A DNA stretch of 46,506 nt from the IMG/VR virus record IMGVR_UViG_3300046817_000492, positions 1 through 46,506 of that record; one strand, 5' to 3'. How positions within the stretch are numbered: position 1 is the first letter of the stretch; each line of letters starts with the position of its first letter. The notes below the pieces were generated by a model. The model was given only the letters and a program-made list of their open reading frames with translations, had not been told where the DNA came from and did not search any database. Positions 1 to 22,307 of the stretch are shown piece after piece. The position numbers and the translations under genes were made by a program. The stretch is from a virus.

Positions 1-384
1 CACATGCGCCGGTAACTCCGGTATCGGTAGCAACTTCCCGTCCGGCCCATACAAGTCACCCACATCCGCAAACGCCACCGCCCGCAAATGACGAGCCCAA
101 TTCTCGGTGCTCATCGCAGCCGCCTCAGATACCTCCCGAGCACGAGCCTCGATGATCGCCGCTACCTTCGGATGACGCACCAGCTTCCACGCCGCATAGG
201 TAACACGCTTCCCCCTATATCCTGCCTGTTCCGCCGCTAGCGTCGCGTTCTGACCGTTCGTCAGATACGCCTCCGCAAACGCCCGATACCGCGCCAGCGC
301 CGCAGCAGGGCTGTTGCCACTAATCCGCTCAACCTTCTGGTGCAGAGCCTGGCGCTCCGCCGATCGTGGCGGCCGACGCCTCAT
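1..384 (-). CDS. terS: Phage terminase small subunit (3' part missing)
   Basis: This is the N-terminal 128 residues of a terminase small subunit, the DNA-recognition part of the packaging motor; the frame is open to the window edge. Residues about 30-75 hold an HTH region (AYLTNGQNATLAAEQAGYRG, then a VRHPKVAAIIEAR helix). Near residue 105 is the VAFADVGDLYGPDGKLLPI segment typical of this family. The ATG at 384 overlaps the stop of the upstream gene (ATGA), which fixes the start. The large subunit is expected just beyond the left edge. Family assignment is by motif recognition. Confidence 0.88.
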   Translation of the reverse strand, partial: MRRRPPRSAERQALHQKVERISGNSPAAALARYRAFAEAYLTNGQNATLAAEQAGYRGKRVTYAAWKLVRHPKVAAIIEARAREVSEAAAMSTENWARHLRAVAFADVGDLYGPDGKLLPIPELPAHV

Positions 385-623
385 CGGTTGATCAGCCCGG
401 GCTGCTTCCCCAACCTCGCATCCGCCCGACGGTCAATCCCACGCTCCGTCGCTACAGACATCCGGCCAGCATTCACCGCAGCCGACGCATACGACTTCGC
501 CGCGCGCGCACGCTTCTTCGTGTCAGTCGGATAGCTGCCTCGAGCCGCACCAGGCGCGCTGCTCCGCTGCGCCTTCCCGGCCTTGGCCAACCGCTCCCGC
601 TCAGCCTTCCTCGGAGCCGCCAT
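381..623 (-). CDS. Small basic phage protein next to terS
   Basis: An 80-residue, Lys/Arg-rich protein of unknown function. Its C-terminal half (SYPTDTKKRARAAKSYAS, then NAGRMS and IDRRADARLGK) resembles short basic tails seen in many phage packaging-region proteins. The ATG at 623 follows a G-rich stretch (GGGGGTAGGG). A TTG at 686 in the same frame would add 21 residues but would overlap the preceding gene by 28 bases, so it is less likely. The stop overlaps the terS start by ATGA, so the two are probably co-translated. Confidence 0.7.
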   Translation of the reverse strand: MAAPRKAERERLAKAGKAQRSSAPGAARGSYPTDTKKRARAAKSYASAAVNAGRMSVATERGIDRRADARLGKQPGLINR

Positions 624-658
624 CCCTACCCCCGGTGCAAACTTCCCAATCCGCGGCG

Positions 659-1327
659 TCAGACATGCGGCCGCCACTCCTGCCAATTAGGCTTTCCCCT
701 GACCTGGGGCAACATCTGCTCAGCAAGCACACGCAATGGACGGTGCAACCGCCGCAACGCACCCATCTCAATCTGCCGAACCCGCTCCTTGCTCACACCA
801 ATCAATTCAGAGATCTGATCATACGTCAGCTCCTCGCCGCCGCCGATCCCATACCGTAACTCAATCACCCGCCGCTGCCGTGGTGCCAGCCTCGTTAACA
901 TCGCCTCATCAACCACAGCACGCCGCTCAATCTGCAATACATGCTCGTCCGGAGCCATCGTCTCCAGCGCCGCCATACGCTGCTCTATCTCAGCCTCAGC
1001 CATCTCAACGCACCGACGATTGCTCGCCATGAATGTCGTCCGCTGGCGATCCGTGAACATGTCGTCCGGGTGACAATACAACGCCTCAGCCAACCGCCAT
1101 ATCTGATCCCGGTAGCCGCCAGTGAACTTGTTGATCGGTGTTACACGCAGATTGACCAAATCCCCGATAGAATTAGCGGAAACACCGCTCTTCCGCGACA
1201 ACTCGGAAACAGAAGCCATCCCAGCACGACGCATCAAACCCAGAATCCGCGCGTTCCTTACCCGGATCTCTACCGAGTAATCGCTCAGGCCTTCCGTCTC
1301 AGCCGGTAGCGTCACCCCGCGTTCCAC
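659..1327 (-). CDS. HTH-sigma-70 region 4 fusion transcription regulator
   Basis: A 222-residue protein with two DNA-binding parts. Residues about 20-92 look like an XRE-type HTH (LMRRAGMASVSELSRKSGVS, then SIGDLVNL and RLAEALYCHPDDMF). Residues about 145-197 match sigma-70 region 4: LAPRQRRVIELRYGI, then LTYDQISELIGVS and the diagnostic KERVRQIEMGALRRL. Sigma region 2, which binds core polymerase and the -10 element, is absent. It is therefore not a complete sigma factor. A role in switching polymerase to packaging or late genes is inferred from its place just upstream of terS. The start is GTG at 1327 and overlaps the preceding gene by 16 bases. Confidence 0.85.
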   Translation of the reverse strand: MERGVTLPAETEGLSDYSVEIRVRNARILGLMRRAGMASVSELSRKSGVSANSIGDLVNLRVTPINKFTGGYRDQIWRLAEALYCHPDDMFTDRQRTTFMASNRRCVEMAEAEIEQRMAALETMAPDEHVLQIERRAVVDEAMLTRLAPRQRRVIELRYGIGGGEELTYDQISELIGVSKERVRQIEMGALRRLHRPLRVLAEQMLPQVRGKPNWQEWRPHV

Positions 1328-2131: not shown

Positions 2132-2160
2132 TTTGTATCACCCGCTGGGACAGCCGTCAA
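2132..2160 (-). promoter_or_regulatory. Leftward promoter for the packaging-proximal operon
   Basis: On the minus strand TTGACG (2155-2160) is followed after 17 bases by TACAAA (2132-2137), four of six matches to a -10. It overlaps the stop of the 104-residue gene and precedes a 144-base leader and the gene starting at 1987. Confidence 0.55.
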
Positions 2161-2471
2161 CAACCATCTCGCGCGCTCCCCCAATCAGCGCGGTGCTTCG
2201 TCCACTGTAACCCAGCCCGATCGCCCTCGCTGATGCTGCGACCCGCCATGGCATAGATGGACCGCCCTCTCATGCTGGGCGTGCCGTTCTGCGTAAGGGC
2301 CATCCATGGCTGGTCAGGCACTCCGGCGTCTCGGAGTAGCCGACAGAGCTTGCACACGGCTGAAGAGCGGGATTGTGCGCTGTAGGCGTGGCCATCGACT
2401 GTGGCGGATGCCGTATCCCAGGGCGCGGACGTGCCGCGCGCCGGGACAGTGCCGAGCTGGATGGTAATCAC
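2157..2471 (-). CDS. Hypothetical phage protein
   Basis: A 104-residue protein of unknown function (MITIQLGTVPARGTSAPWDT, then a central VCKLCRLLRDAGVPDQPW and C-terminal RSIYAMAGRSISEG). The start is GTG at 2471, overlapping the stop of the upstream HTH gene as GTGA, so translation is coupled. It closes a small leftward operon (3015 to 2157) before the next leftward promoter. Confidence 0.7.
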   Translation of the reverse strand: MITIQLGTVPARGTSAPWDTASATVDGHAYSAQSRSSAVCKLCRLLRDAGVPDQPWMALTQNGTPSMRGRSIYAMAGRSISEGDRAGLQWTKHRADWGSARDGC

Positions 2472-2710
2472 GGCGCAGCCATGGCAGACCGCGGCGGCCT
2501 GCCCGGAGGCCGCTTGACCAACGGCGGCGGCGGATCACTCCGCATCCTCTCCGCGTGCCGCTCCAGCCACGGATCGAGCCACGCAGGCGGATCGTAGCCG
2601 GCGCGGAACCAGCGGCGGACAGTGCTCTCGTCGTAGCCGATCAGCCGGGCAAAGCCGCGCTGCGTCCACCCGAGGACATCGAGGCAGGCGCGGCGCGCGG
2701 TGGGGGTCAT
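2468..2710 (-). CDS. Small HTH DNA-binding protein
   Basis: An 80-residue protein with an N-terminal HTH (ARRACLDVLGWTQRGFARLI then DESTVRRWFRAG) of the XRE or phage Cro-like type. The WTQRGFARLIG helix pair and VRRWF recognition helix are clear. The tail is Pro/Arg-rich (PPPPLVKRPPGRPPRS). ATG 2710 overlaps the stop of the Rmf-like gene (ATGA). It probably regulates transcription; its target is unknown. Confidence 0.8.
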   Translation of the reverse strand: MTPTARRACLDVLGWTQRGFARLIGYDESTVRRWFRAGYDPPAWLDPWLERHAERMRSDPPPPLVKRPPGRPPRSAMAAP

Positions 2711-2862
2711 GACTGATACGGCTCCAGGGCACGCAGGATAGCATCGCTTTCCTGCCATCCCTCACGCCAGTTACGATGCATCGGCGTTCCTTCCGCATAG
2801 GGGTTAGCGGTGGCAGGCTGCCCGTTCCTGCGAGCCTCGCGACCTTCGGTGTATGAAGGCAT
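2707..2862 (-). CDS. Rmf/CrpP-like small protein
   Basis: A 51-residue protein. It carries EGREARRNG, ANPY, EGTPMHRNWREGW and ESDAIL in that order. This matches the repeated pattern of small Rmf/CrpP-like proteins (EGR...G...NPY..GT...W..GW). The Rmf family includes the ribosome modulation factor; phage and plasmid members are mostly uncharacterised. A good ribosome site (GGAGGG) lies seven bases before ATG 2862, and the stop overlaps the next gene (ATGA). Confidence 0.7.
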   Translation of the reverse strand: MPSYTEGREARRNGQPATANPYAEGTPMHRNWREGWQESDAILRALEPYQS

Positions 2863-3062: not shown

Positions 3063-3091
3063 CTTATGCCGCATCCAGCGGGCATTGTCAA
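3063..3091 (-). promoter_or_regulatory. Leftward promoter for the 3015-2157 operon
   Basis: Minus-strand TTGACA (3086-3091), a 17-base spacer, and CATAAG (3063-3068) with AAGGTG running on from it. The -35 is perfect; the -10 matches at four of six positions. It lies 48 bases upstream of ATG 3015 in an otherwise empty 200-base gap. Confidence 0.6.
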
Positions 3092-3765: not shown

Positions 3766-3794
3766 CCTTGCGCTGGTTTGGTTGAGGCGGTCAA
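3766..3794 (-). promoter_or_regulatory. Leftward promoter with weak -10
   Basis: Minus-strand TTGACC (3789-3794), 17 bases, then GCAAGG (3766-3771), which is a poor -10. Two direct repeats abut the -35 on its upstream side, as expected for an activator-dependent promoter. It would drive the gene starting at 3756. Confidence 0.4.
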
Positions 3795-3836
3795 GAGTAT
3801 CCTGTTACCACACAATGAGTACCCTGTTACCACACT
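3795..3836. repeat. Two 20-bp direct repeats beside a promoter
   Basis: GAGTATCCTGTTACCACACA (3795-3814) and GAGTACCCTGTTACCACACT (3817-3836) match at 18 of 20 bases with a 22-bp period, about two helical turns. They sit directly upstream of the leftward -35 at 3789-3794. They probably bind a regulator on one face of the helix. Confidence 0.7.
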
Positions 3837-4164: not shown

Positions 4165-5577
4165 TCAGTAAGTTTCTCTCTGTTTATCAGCTTTCAGTCC
4201 AATTCCCCGCACGACTCGCCCCCCGTCTGTCTTCATTCTCCTTACACCTTGCATTCTGTCCATTAATTCCGCAAAATCCATTGCGTTCATAGCCTCTTCC
4301 CCGCTGGCTTTTGCCCAAGCATTGAAGTCTGCGAGGAGTATTGAGGGTGCGAGCTGGAGGTGCGGGTCTAGGATGCATCTCTCGTCTATCCAGTTACGGA
4401 AACCGTCCTGTGTCTCAAAATACGATCCTGTTGCGGCTGCTACGGCTGGGCAGATCCCGAGGCCATTTGCCTTCCAGGCCCGGCACCCGTCGATCATCCA
4501 GCGGAGTATGGCGGGATATTCGGAGGCCATTTTTTCTTTGAGGTCGAGGTCAGGAGTATCGACTACGTGGCTGAATGGGATGACGCGAAGCCTGCGTTCC
4601 ATGGCTGCCGATCGGCCTTTGAGGCGAGGGGCGTGATTGCCAACGAGCACAATTTTGAATTGCGGGCGGAATGTGAATGGCTCGCCGTAGGGATGGCGGC
4701 CCGAGATGGGGGTTTCGTTTCCCGTCAGTTCTTTGATGGCCGACTCGGCCCAGGTGGTCTGGGCTTCGGTTTCGCTAGCGGTCACGAGCCGGACGCCATC
4801 CATTTTCGCCCGGTAATATTCGAGGTTGATGCGGCTCGAGGCAGTGAATACCTCGATCGGAACCGCTACCGCGTAATCACCGAGGATGCGGCTGATGGTG
4901 GAGAGCACAACGCCTTTGCCGGCACCGCCTGGGCCGTAAACAAACGTCAGGATCTCTTCGTTGACCGCGCCGGTCAGGAGATAACCGCAGAGCCGTTGGA
5001 TGAATCCTTGCAGAGCCTCGTCGCCTTGCGTAGCCTCAGTTAGGAATGCTGACCAGATTGGCGCTGGAGTGCCGGGCGGGGCGGGAACGACGGCAGTCTG
5101 CCGGCGGATGTAGGTCTGCTGAATGGCAGGGCCGTGAATGCCCGTCCGGAGATCGACGGTCCCCTCCGGCGTGCCGAGTAGCCACGGCTGGGCGTCCCAT
5201 TGGTCGGTCGTGGCGGCATGGGTGCGATCCGCGCGGGCGAGGAACTCAACCGCCTTGACGGCGCGGGCGCTCCCTACCGCCTTGGCCGCAATCGGCGATA
5301 TGATCCGCGCCGCCTCGGTGCGGCACAACTCGCGAGCGAATGACAGCACCAGATGGGTAGCATCGAATTCCCACCGCTGCCCGTTCCAATGCAGCCATTT
5401 GTCCCAGAGTTTGACGTAACGCAGCTTGTCACCGTGCCGGGCAGTGAATTTAAGCGCCAACGCTTCGTCGGCGGTTTCCGGCAATCCTCCCTGCCTGGCA
5501 TTGGGGTGCTGGATCACTTGGGCGCCCGGATGCTCGAGCGGGTCGTATTCCGGAGGCTCGTCCAAAAGCTCGCTCAT
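4165..5577 (-). CDS. D5/P4-type SF3 replicative helicase
   Basis: A 470-residue phage or plasmid DNA helicase of the poxvirus D5/P4 primase C-terminal type. The D5 N-terminal region spans about 45-200 (YVKLWDKWLHWNGQRWEFD, then GTPEGTVDLRTG). Walker A is YGPGGAGKG (about 214-222), a likely Walker B region is MDGVRLVTASETE, and the sensor-like strand is KIVLVGNHAPRL. There is no Toprim or archaeo-eukaryotic primase domain at the N-terminus, so it is probably a helicase only, acting at the phage origin. ATG 5577 overlaps the nuclease stop (ATGA). The upstream two genes are its likely partners in replication. Confidence 0.92.
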   Translation of the reverse strand: MSELLDEPPEYDPLEHPGAQVIQHPNARQGGLPETADEALALKFTARHGDKLRYVKLWDKWLHWNGQRWEFDATHLVLSFARELCRTEAARIISPIAAKAVGSARAVKAVEFLARADRTHAATTDQWDAQPWLLGTPEGTVDLRTGIHGPAIQQTYIRRQTAVVPAPPGTPAPIWSAFLTEATQGDEALQGFIQRLCGYLLTGAVNEEILTFVYGPGGAGKGVVLSTISRILGDYAVAVPIEVFTASSRINLEYYRAKMDGVRLVTASETEAQTTWAESAIKELTGNETPISGRHPYGEPFTFRPQFKIVLVGNHAPRLKGRSAAMERRLRVIPFSHVVDTPDLDLKEKMASEYPAILRWMIDGCRAWKANGLGICPAVAAATGSYFETQDGFRNWIDERCILDPHLQLAPSILLADFNAWAKASGEEAMNAMDFAELMDRMQGVRRMKTDGGRVVRGIGLKADKQRETY

Positions 5578-11410: not shown

Positions 11411-11653
11411 CTACGATGGCGGCGCCCCTCTTGCCGCCTCGATCACCGCCCGCACCGTGGGGCCAGGCGGGCGACCCAGCTTCACCGTCCAGATGCGGCG
11501 AAAGTGGTATGCGGCATCCGTCGGTGGCCCGTTGCGATACCCATGCACGCGCTGGGACCATACCGCGACGGCGACTACCCGGATGCCGGCCATCACCACG
11601 CGGTATTTGTGTTCGCCGAGCGGCACGTCCCGGCTGTGCGTGGGGGCGCTCAT
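11411..11653 (-). CDS. Small hypothetical protein
   Basis: An 80-residue protein with a beta-rich core (EHKYRVVMAGIRVVAVAVWS, then YHFRRIWTVKLGRPPGPTVR). No family recognised. ATG 11653 overlaps the HTH-protein stop (ATGA). Confidence 0.6.
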   Translation of the reverse strand: MSAPTHSRDVPLGEHKYRVVMAGIRVVAVAVWSQRVHGYRNGPPTDAAYHFRRIWTVKLGRPPGPTVRAVIEAARGAPPS

Positions 11654-12210
11654 GCCTGCTGCAACTCCTTAGCCAATCGCCGTGCCTGCGCCGCGGATAC
11701 ACCGAGTGCCGCCGCGATCAGTGGGAAGGACAGCCCCTTCTCCCGCATCTCCCGCGCGGCTTTCCGTAGCGCGCAGACACGCTCGACGTCCTCCCGCGTC
11801 CGCCCGTGCTTCAGTGCGATCTGGCGGATGCGCTCACGGCTGACACCGAATGTTGCCGCGACAGCTTTCAGCGTTTCGCCTTGTGCGAGCCGTTCCATTA
11901 CTGCGCTATGAGAATGAACCTTCGTGGGGAAGCCGGTTTTTACGCAGAAACTGCCTTTCAGCCCGGCCTGCACGGCAAGGCTGCTGACCACCGACAGGCC
12001 GACGCCCAAGCTCCGCGCGATCTGCCCGCGGCTTTCTCCTGCCCGCAATCGCGCCGCCACGTCATCGGGCGTAATTCTGTCCCGGACGAGAGTTCGCGTC
12101 TTGCGCGCGATGCCCTTAGCCAACGCCAGTTTCCGCACCAGCGTCTGCACGTCCCGCAGGTGTTGGCGGATTTCGATTATGATAGCGCTGTTGTCACGGT
12201 CGCGGCTCAT
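11650..12210 (-). CDS. Multi-HTH DNA-binding protein
   Basis: A 186-residue protein with three HTH-like units: residues about 48-80 (TPDDVAARLRAGESRGQIAR then SLGVGLSVVSSLA), 103-136 (GETLKAVAATFGVSRERIRQ) and 155-182 (GLSFPLIAAALGVSAAQARR). The middle unit resembles sigma region 4.2 (VSRERIRQIA). Three tandem readers suggest binding to an extended or repeated site. Starts at ATG 12210, overlapping the RHH gene stop (ATGA). Likely a regulator or a DNA-organising protein of this phage. Confidence 0.75.
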   Translation of the reverse strand: MSRDRDNSAIIIEIRQHLRDVQTLVRKLALAKGIARKTRTLVRDRITPDDVAARLRAGESRGQIARSLGVGLSVVSSLAVQAGLKGSFCVKTGFPTKVHSHSAVMERLAQGETLKAVAATFGVSRERIRQIALKHGRTREDVERVCALRKAAREMREKGLSFPLIAAALGVSAAQARRLAKELQQA

Positions 12211-20067: not shown

Positions 20068-21441
20068 ATGTCAGACAATAACGAATATCGCGTATTTCTG
20101 GCAAGCAAAGCCCCCGTTGCAGCAGCGCGAGGCTTTGAGCCGTATCCCATTTCGGCAGCTCTGTTTGATTTCCAAAAGGCCGCCACTGAGTTTTGTATCC
20201 GCCGAGGCCGTGCCGCGCTGTTTTTGGATACTGGTCTCGGAAAGACAATCTGCGAGCTTGAGTTTGCGTTACAGGCCGCCGAGGCATCGAATGGCTGCGC
20301 GCTGATCTTGACGCCTCTTGCCGTTGCTCGGCAGATCGAACGTGAGGCCGTCCGATTCGGCTATGGTGCGCGAGTTGTGCGTGAGCAATCGGAAGTTCGG
20401 GCTGGCATCAATATATGCAATTACGATCGCCTTGACCGCCTCGAAGCATCAGCATTCGGCTGCGTGGTGCTGGACGAAAGCAGCATCTTGAAATCTTTCA
20501 TGGGCAAGACGACCCGCGCGCTTATCAACTCATTTGCCGATACGCCCTATCGTCTCGCTGCCACCGCAACTCCAGCCCCAAACGACCACATCGAACTTGG
20601 CACACACGCCGAGTTCCTGGGCATAATGTCGCAGGCCGAGATGCTTGTCCGGTGGTTCATTAACGATAGCAACGATACGGGCGTGTGGCGGCTTAAGGGC
20701 CATGCCATAGAGCCATTCTGGGACTGGTGCGCATCGTGGGCAGTTATGGCAGAAAGCCCGGCTGACTTAGGCTTTGACGCCTCGCGGTTCGCGCTGCCTC
20801 CGCTCAACATCGTGCGGCATCGTGCGGCAGCAACGGCGATCCCCACCGAAGGTCTGTTCGGCTTCGACGTGAGCGCAACGGCAATCCACGATCTGAAACG
20901 GCAGACCGCCGAAGCGAGGGCTGATGCCGTTGCCCGCATCATCGGCGACAGCACCGAGCCATGGCTGATCTGGTGCGACACGAACTACGAGGCTGACAGC
21001 GTGCGCGCGGCGCTTCCTGGTGTAACCGAAATCCGTGGATCAATGACTATTGACGAGAAGGAAGATGGCATCTCCGCATTCCTCTCCGGCACAGCCGCCC
21101 GGCTACTGACGAAGCAATCTATCTGCGGGTATGGGCTCAACCTGCAGTTCTGTCAAAACATGATATTCGTCGGTCGCTCGTTCTCCTACGAGGGATGGTA
21201 TCAGGCCATTCGCCGTTGCTGGCGCTTCGGGCAGACGCGGCCCGTCAATGTGCATATCGTGGTGGCAGAGGGCGAGGATCAGATTGGTCGGGTAATCGAC
21301 CGCAAGGCCGAGGATCATGCGACGATGAAGGCTGCAATGCGCAGTGCCACCCTCCGCAACTTCGCTACTGACCACGAAACGAGAGTGCCGTATAACCCCA
21401 CTTTCTCAGGGAGGCTGCCAGCATGGCTGTCCGCTGCTTGA
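20068..21441 (+). CDS. SNF2-like SF2 helicase paired with methyltransferase
   Basis: A 457-residue ATPase. Motifs: F-Q entry (FDFQKAATEFCIRRGRAALF), Walker A DTGLGKT (54-60), motif II VVLDESSIL (DES instead of DEAH), motif III ATATPAPND, and motif VI IRRCWRFGQTRPVNVH. The NHIELGTH...EFL region after motif III is typical of phage SNF2-like proteins. The RFGQ.R.V signature marks the SNF2/Rad54 branch, which translocates on double-stranded DNA. It overlaps the methyltransferase by 19 bases, so the two are made together and may form a DNA modification complex. ATG 20068 has a good ribosome site (AGGAG). Confidence 0.9.
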   Translation: MSDNNEYRVFLASKAPVAAARGFEPYPISAALFDFQKAATEFCIRRGRAALFLDTGLGKTICELEFALQAAEASNGCALILTPLAVARQIEREAVRFGYGARVVREQSEVRAGINICNYDRLDRLEASAFGCVVLDESSILKSFMGKTTRALINSFADTPYRLAATATPAPNDHIELGTHAEFLGIMSQAEMLVRWFINDSNDTGVWRLKGHAIEPFWDWCASWAVMAESPADLGFDASRFALPPLNIVRHRAAATAIPTEGLFGFDVSATAIHDLKRQTAEARADAVARIIGDSTEPWLIWCDTNYEADSVRAALPGVTEIRGSMTIDEKEDGISAFLSGTAARLLTKQSICGYGLNLQFCQNMIFVGRSFSYEGWYQAIRRCWRFGQTRPVNVHIVVAEGEDQIGRVIDRKAEDHATMKAAMRSATLRNFATDHETRVPYNPTFSGRLPAWLSAA

Positions 21442-22307
21442 ACGAGATGCACGGACGCGATTTTGTCGCGTGGTATGGCGATTGTGTTGATGTGGTCAAG
21501 CAGATGCCGGACAACAGCGTCGGCTTCTCGATCTACTCGCCTCCTTTTAGTAACCTGTTCTGCTATTCAGACAGCGAAGCCGACATGGGCAATAGCGCCA
21601 ACGACGGCGAGTTCATCCGGCATTATGGCTTCCTGCTAACTGAGATGGCGCGTGTTACTAAGCCGGGTCGCCTGTCTGCCGTCCACTGCTCCGATCTGCC
21701 ATTGCAGAAGTGGAAAGACGGTATGATCGGCATCAAGGACCTGTCGGGCGACATCATCCGCGCGCATGAGGCCGCCGGTTTCGTGCTTCATTCTCGGGTT
21801 ACGATCTGGAAGGATCCAGTGGTCGAGATGACGCGCACGAAGGCGCTCGGCCTGCTCTACAAGCAGTTGCAGAAGGACAGCACGCGCTCGCGCACAGGGA
21901 TGCCAGATTACCTGCTGGTGTTTCGTGCGCCAGGCGAGAACGTCGAGCCAGTCGGACAGGACAGCGCCAAGTTCCCCGTTGAGCGGTGGCAACAATGGGC
22001 CTCTCCGGTATGGATGGATATCCGGCAGACAAATACTCTCAACGTCGCGGTGGCGCGCGATGACAAGGACGAGCGGCACCTCTGCCCACTACAACTCGAC
22101 CTGATTACCCGCGCGCTTCTGCTATGGAGCAATCCCGGCGATGTAGTTATCTCGCCATTCATGGGCGTTGGCAGCGAAGGCGCTATGGCGCTGCAACACC
22201 GCCGCAAGTTTGTGGGCGTAGAGTTGAAAGAAGCCTACTGGCGGACGGCGTGCAAGTATCTTGCCGAGGCCGAGGCTGGTGCCGTAGACCTATTCGCTGC
22301 CGGATAG
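21423..22307 (+). CDS. N4/N6 DNA methyltransferase (beta-class)
   Basis: A 294-residue amino-methyltransferase. Catalytic motif IV is SPPF (39-42), followed by a target-recognition region. Near the C-terminus come CPLQLDLITRALLLWSNPGD and the SAM-binding motif FMGVGSEG (about 246-253), then FVGVELKEAYW. The order IV, recognition, I is beta-class. SPPF points to cytosine-N4 or adenine-N6. It has a good ribosome site (GGGAGG, eight bases). Encoded with the preceding SNF2-like helicase; no restriction nuclease is visible. Likely protects phage DNA or alters host methylation. Confidence 0.92.
   Translation: MAVRCLNEMHGRDFVAWYGDCVDVVKQMPDNSVGFSIYSPPFSNLFCYSDSEADMGNSANDGEFIRHYGFLLTEMARVTKPGRLSAVHCSDLPLQKWKDGMIGIKDLSGDIIRAHEAAGFVLHSRVTIWKDPVVEMTRTKALGLLYKQLQKDSTRSRTGMPDYLLVFRAPGENVEPVGQDSAKFPVERWQQWASPVWMDIRQTNTLNVAVARDDKDERHLCPLQLDLITRALLLWSNPGDVVISPFMGVGSEGAMALQHRRKFVGVELKEAYWRTACKYLAEAEAGAVDLFAAG

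Follow-up and report, generated by a model that had tools for sequence, protein, structure and literature searches.

Sigma factors are the promoter-reading subunits of RNA polymerase. Phage-encoded proteins which redirect transcription without being sigma factors include the late activators of the Ltr superfamily (ArpU, RinA and Ltr) and T4 gp33, which binds the flap as a mimic of sigma region 4 without any sequence similarity to sigma (PMC2988020). Sigma appropriation by AsiA and MotA of T4 is likewise described in PMC6755090, while PMC10141391 lists the split sigma factor SigO-RsoA and, with sigma-2 and sigma-4, Xpf of PBSX. Here, we describe a leftward gene at positions 659 to 1327 of the virus record IMGVR_UViG_3300046817_000492, analysed over its whole 46,506 nucleotides (the window), whose product, called the regulator in the following, joins a helix-turn-helix (HTH) of the Cro/C1 type to a sigma-70 region 4 and lacks regions 2 and 3. 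On the basis of its domains, relatives and gene position, we lean slightly towards a phage transcription activator that brings about the change to middle or late genes, and not a sigma factor.

Domain architecture of the regulator

The gene and its two domains are located as follows.

659..1327, minus strand: gene of the HTH-sigma-4 regulator, GTG start, 222 amino acids; homologues begin at residue 16
746..898, minus strand: sigma-70 region 4 domain of the regulator, residues 144-194 (PF04545)
1052..1252, minus strand: N-terminal Cro/C1 (Ner-like) HTH, residues 26-92 (HTH_26, HTH_35 in relatives, model helices)

Pfam Sigma70_r4 (PF04545) matches residues 144-194 with 55.7 bits (E 3.5e-15), which bears out the region 4 that a sequence-only reading of the window had placed at residues 145-197; residues 141-199 align with region 4 of many sigma factors among the PDB sequences and, free of gaps, with residues 545-603 of Escherichia coli RpoD. 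The N-terminal HTH, in that reading XRE-like, was confirmed as Cro/C1 type by a match to HTH_26 at residues 28-92 (23.7 bits, above the Pfam cut-off of 22). The N-termini of relatives match HTH_35 (Ner/Nlp type) or HTH_26, HTH_35 being found in seven of nine family members at E<=0.01 and lying just under its cut-off in the relative L045. As the first residue covered by homologues is D16, residues 1-13 after the annotated GTG are doubtful, and the actual start may be further downstream.

No Pfam match to Sigma70_r2 or Sigma70_r3 was obtained for the regulator even at E<=10, nor for the regulators of its relatives. The NCBIfam sigma models, among the best 25 of 53 matches, cover the region 4 end only. 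With regions 2 and 3 absent, a complete sigma factor is ruled out, in agreement with the sequence-only reading, which had drawn the same conclusion from the missing region 2. Equally ruled out is an N-terminus derived from sigma region 3, an idea that arose from the name of a structural match in the BFVD library and from long Foldseek alignments to SigA (root-mean-square deviation, rmsd, 15-18); Pfam assigns this part to Cro/C1 or Ner HTH domains and never to Sigma70_r3.

A structure model built from an alignment of 20 sequences (predicted local distance difference test, pLDDT, 76.5; predicted template modelling score, pTM, 0.43) shows a helical HTH domain between two strands (residues 17-109), joined by a pair of helices (111-146) to a fold of the region 4 type (149-205). 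The modelled HTH helices span residues 26-34, 40-47 and 51-58, the flanking strands 17-22 and 104-109, and the modelled region 4 superposes on domain 4 of SigA (e.g. 4g6d) with rmsd 1.7 and TMt 0.78. The best structural match in the viral library over nearly the whole chain is BFVD A0A0F7L6V6 (E 1e-9, 213 columns), an unstudied protein of 200 amino acids from an uncultured marine virus, named 'Sigma-70 region 3 domain protein'. As one rigid body the two proteins superpose poorly (TM 0.43-0.47, rmsd 19), which is expected for two loosely linked domains, and A0A0F7L6V6 is probably, as judged from the model, a family member deposited earlier under an automatic name.

A conserved family in uncultured phages

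The sequence-only reading had proposed a search for the same domain pair in other phages, and such a protein was indeed found, full length, in 34 other contigs, all from uncultured phages, which reduce to about 13 distinct types once near copies are removed and share mostly 22-35% identity. The first scan yielded one full-length relative, L002, 26% identical across both halves; further scans gave the remainder. The group L028-L030 comprises the closest relatives, with 35% identity to the window regulator and 37% to that of L068. In the relatives, an N-terminal signature D-F/Y-x-V-x-I/V-x-V-R/K-N-x-x-L is conserved jointly with the C-terminal region 4. The fused HTH-region 4 protein is one conserved family, and all members found here come from uncultured phages. 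Searches with short peptide seeds or tblastn, which miss distant members, found it neither among 50,697 named phages nor in two GTDB scans of about 85,000 genomes of bacteria and archaea.

Several matches were set aside. Those in the named-phage entries L004 and L005 are ordinary sigma factors, and their contigs look bacterial; most other named-phage matches consist of region 4 and little besides, and a match on a Pseudomonas nitroreducens plasmid is a 521-amino acid sigma-like protein in which the N-terminal domain is absent by profile. In the contig L049, the regulator gene is spread over two frames at 4186-4859, a frameshift or a sequencing error.

Conservation within region 4

Lists of the sigma-70 residues that contact the -35 element or bind the core enzyme were taken from PMC4943231 and transferred to 12 distinct family members through the gap-free RpoD alignment. 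Compared with E. coli sigma-70, the family shows 60% identity and 77% similarity at the -35-contact positions, 47% identity and 75% similarity at the core-binding positions, and 34% identity and 53% similarity at the other positions of region 4. Such a pattern is what a still-working sigma-4 module would look like, although a number of these positions have a structural role as well.

Gene position

Downstream of the regulator, the window holds the following genes.

381..686, minus strand: small open reading frame between the regulator and the small terminase subunit gene (TerS), likely start an ATG near 623; no PHROG match
1..384, minus strand: TerS (phrog_51, E 8e-13), reaching the left end of the record

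The leftward order is primase/helicase block, small genes, regulator, small open reading frame and TerS, the last being two genes downstream of the regulator in a common unit. No large terminase gene (TerL) is present from TerS to either end of the record, and as end repeats are missing as well, the record looks incomplete. In the clade of L002, the regulator is followed right after its stop by a terminator hairpin (folding z -2.6; tested by RNA folding in L002 only) and then by TerS (phrog_309) and TerL (phrog_38). In L040, TerS lies several genes downstream. In G002 (L058/L059), the early unit ends with SSB, small genes, the regulator and NinG, and is faced by one convergent late unit; this contig, classed as linear and about 33.3-33.4 kb long, carries a 99-nucleotide direct end repeat (98/99 identical), so that the genome is probably complete. 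In L068 and L039, the regulator gene sits amid replication genes, and in L047 TerL is on the opposite strand. The shared theme is a position in the early/replication block or at its edge, and the terminase neighbour is an arrangement of one clade plus, loosely, the window.

Further genes of the window encode HTH domains or DNA-acting enzymes. In the block of the regulator itself, a 96-amino acid HTH protein (2468-2758, minus strand; HTH_31/HTH_3, weak) is a possible second regulator. A 186-amino acid protein (11650-12210, minus strand) contains three HTH-like repeats, the middle one of which (GVSRERIRQIA) matches Sigma70_r4/HTH_23 with E 5e-9 and is a second module of the sigma-4 kind in this phage. 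Against the main direction of transcription, at 20068-22307 on the plus strand, a helicase-like protein precedes an N6/N4 DNA methylase that overlaps it.

Candidate promoters and a candidate operator

Three leftward candidate sites were located upstream in the window.

2132..2160, minus strand: candidate promoter TTGACG-17-TACAAA with TGA before the -10; consensus match only
3063..3091, minus strand: candidate promoter TTGACA-17-CATAAG; consensus match only
3766..3835, minus strand: TTGACC-17-GCAAGG directly preceded by two direct copies of GTGTGGTAACAGGRTACTC; candidate regulator site

The first of these precedes the block to which the regulator and TerS belong. The sequence-only reading had described several leftward promoters with a good TTGAC -35 and a weak -10. 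As to the -35 this holds for the sites at 2160, 3091 and 3794, all with 17-nucleotide spacers; their -10 boxes match TATAAT at 4/6, 4/6 and 1/6 positions, so that the last has essentially no -10. TTGAC occurs three times in the three gaps against 0.42 expected (p 0.006), these gaps having been chosen post hoc for holding it, and a general promoter scan gave no excess (five found, 3.9 expected). The two direct 19-nucleotide copies of GTGTGGTAACAGGRTACTC, 22 nucleotides apart at 3795-3835 (minus strand), abut the TTGACC -35, with 0 expected by chance in the window. No exact match to this repeat was found among other viral contigs, for which reason it cannot be tied to the regulator; it is the best lead to an operator in the window.

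The suggestion that the regulator would, as a rule, aid promoters combining a good -35 with a weak -10 finds no support in the relatives, whose likely TerS promoters are of the opposite kind and carry a -10-like box without a -35 consensus. Upstream of TerS, L024, L025, L022 and L040 have in common a terminator-like tail rich in T, a leader and the box TACATT/TATATT, and the -35 position at a 17-nucleotide spacer reads TTTCTT or CTTTTT. In one clade, this position falls within the terminator T-run. The promoter core of the L002 TerS, searched elsewhere in its contigs, gave the TerS site and, apart from that, only an unrelated 8-mer. Repeats upstream of promoters were seen solely before the 3794 site of the window, and none were seen before TerS in the relatives.

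Possible mode of action

From the two domains, the missing region 2, the family and the gene position, all of them observed, we infer an activator role, the target promoters and a contact with the polymerase. The Cro/C1-type HTH would bind a phage-specific site and the sigma region 4 domain would sit at the -35 position and contact RNA polymerase, beside the host sigma region 4 or in its place, with melting of the -10 still performed by region 2 of the host sigma. An action on the polymerase at promoters would fit both the gene position and the retained residues for -35 reading and core docking, and the activator reading is the most economical.

In comparison with known systems, the regulator falls outside the Ltr, ArpU and RinA families by sequence, as none of them was matched in Pfam at E<=10 or among the best 25 of 53 NCBIfam matches. 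It resembles these activators in being phage-encoded and not a sigma factor, and differs from them by the added Cro/C1 HTH in front; no triple or quadruple repeat was seen before TerS. With the sigma-70 factors it shares a genuine region 4 and differs from them by the absent regions 2 and 3. A phage protein that acts where sigma region 4 sits would follow the same principle as T4 gp33 and MotA/AsiA; unlike in gp33, region 4 is recognisable in the regulator and shares a single chain with the HTH to which it is fused. By analogy, the best explanation is that the regulator would work like the Ltr-type activators or like gp33/MotA.

Several points weigh against the activator reading. The regulator gene is not beside terminase genes in L047, L028-L030 and L068, no operator motif common to the relatives was found, and the inter-domain confidence of the structure model is low (pTM 0.43). 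Residue conservation, moreover, is no proof of polymerase contact, because some of the conserved residues belong to the structural core common to all sigma-4 HTHs.

A sharper and bolder form of the activator reading is that the regulator replaces host sigma region 4 on the beta flap, the HTH giving a new upstream address, so that the holoenzyme would turn to phage promoters without a host -35, and host promoters being weakened too; this would be sigma appropriation by a single protein. The 75% similarity at the core-binding positions and the TerS promoters of relatives, with -10-like boxes and without a -35 consensus, speak for it, and T4 gp33 and AsiA/MotA provide precedents. Against this, region 4 of the host would be a competitor tethered to the remaining parts of sigma, and the missing -35 consensus may reflect the terminator only, as its T-run covers the -35 position in one clade. 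We regard such a replacement as possible, though rather doubtful. Extended to the family as a whole, with an operator-binding HTH and a working region 4 that would displace that of the host from the flap and so rewire the holoenzyme to late promoters devoid of a -35, it appears doubtful.

Alternatively, the regulator may be a plain DNA-binding protein with two HTH domains, an activator or a repressor that uses sigma-4 as a DNA-binding module in the manner of LuxR/GerE-type proteins and leaves the flap untouched. Region 4 also matches generic HTH models in Pfam, the -35-contact residues have diverged in L044 and L050, and the three-HTH protein at 11650-12210 shows that such modules are recycled. 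Most members, however, keep the ERxRQIE helix and keep the core-binding residues better than the remaining domain, and we consider this alternative unlikely.

That the regulator supplies region 4 to a split sigma factor whose region 2 is on a separate protein, as known from SigO-RsoA, is highly improbable, since Sigma70_r2 is encoded nowhere in the 46.5 kb window record and is absent from 22/22 contigs of relatives checked, most of these being incomplete and a very divergent region 2 such as that of T4 gp55 being able to escape detection. The regulator is present once in each of 21 of these contigs; G014 has an extra weak match to region 4 only.

Implications

If the regulator is indeed a late-gene activator, it would represent a further layout for the late switch of phages and provide a handle for the prediction of late promoters in many uncultured phages. 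If docking on the flap holds true, the family would offer a direct test of region 4 as a swappable module that operates with the region 2 of the host sigma still at work, a question hitherto linked mainly to T4.
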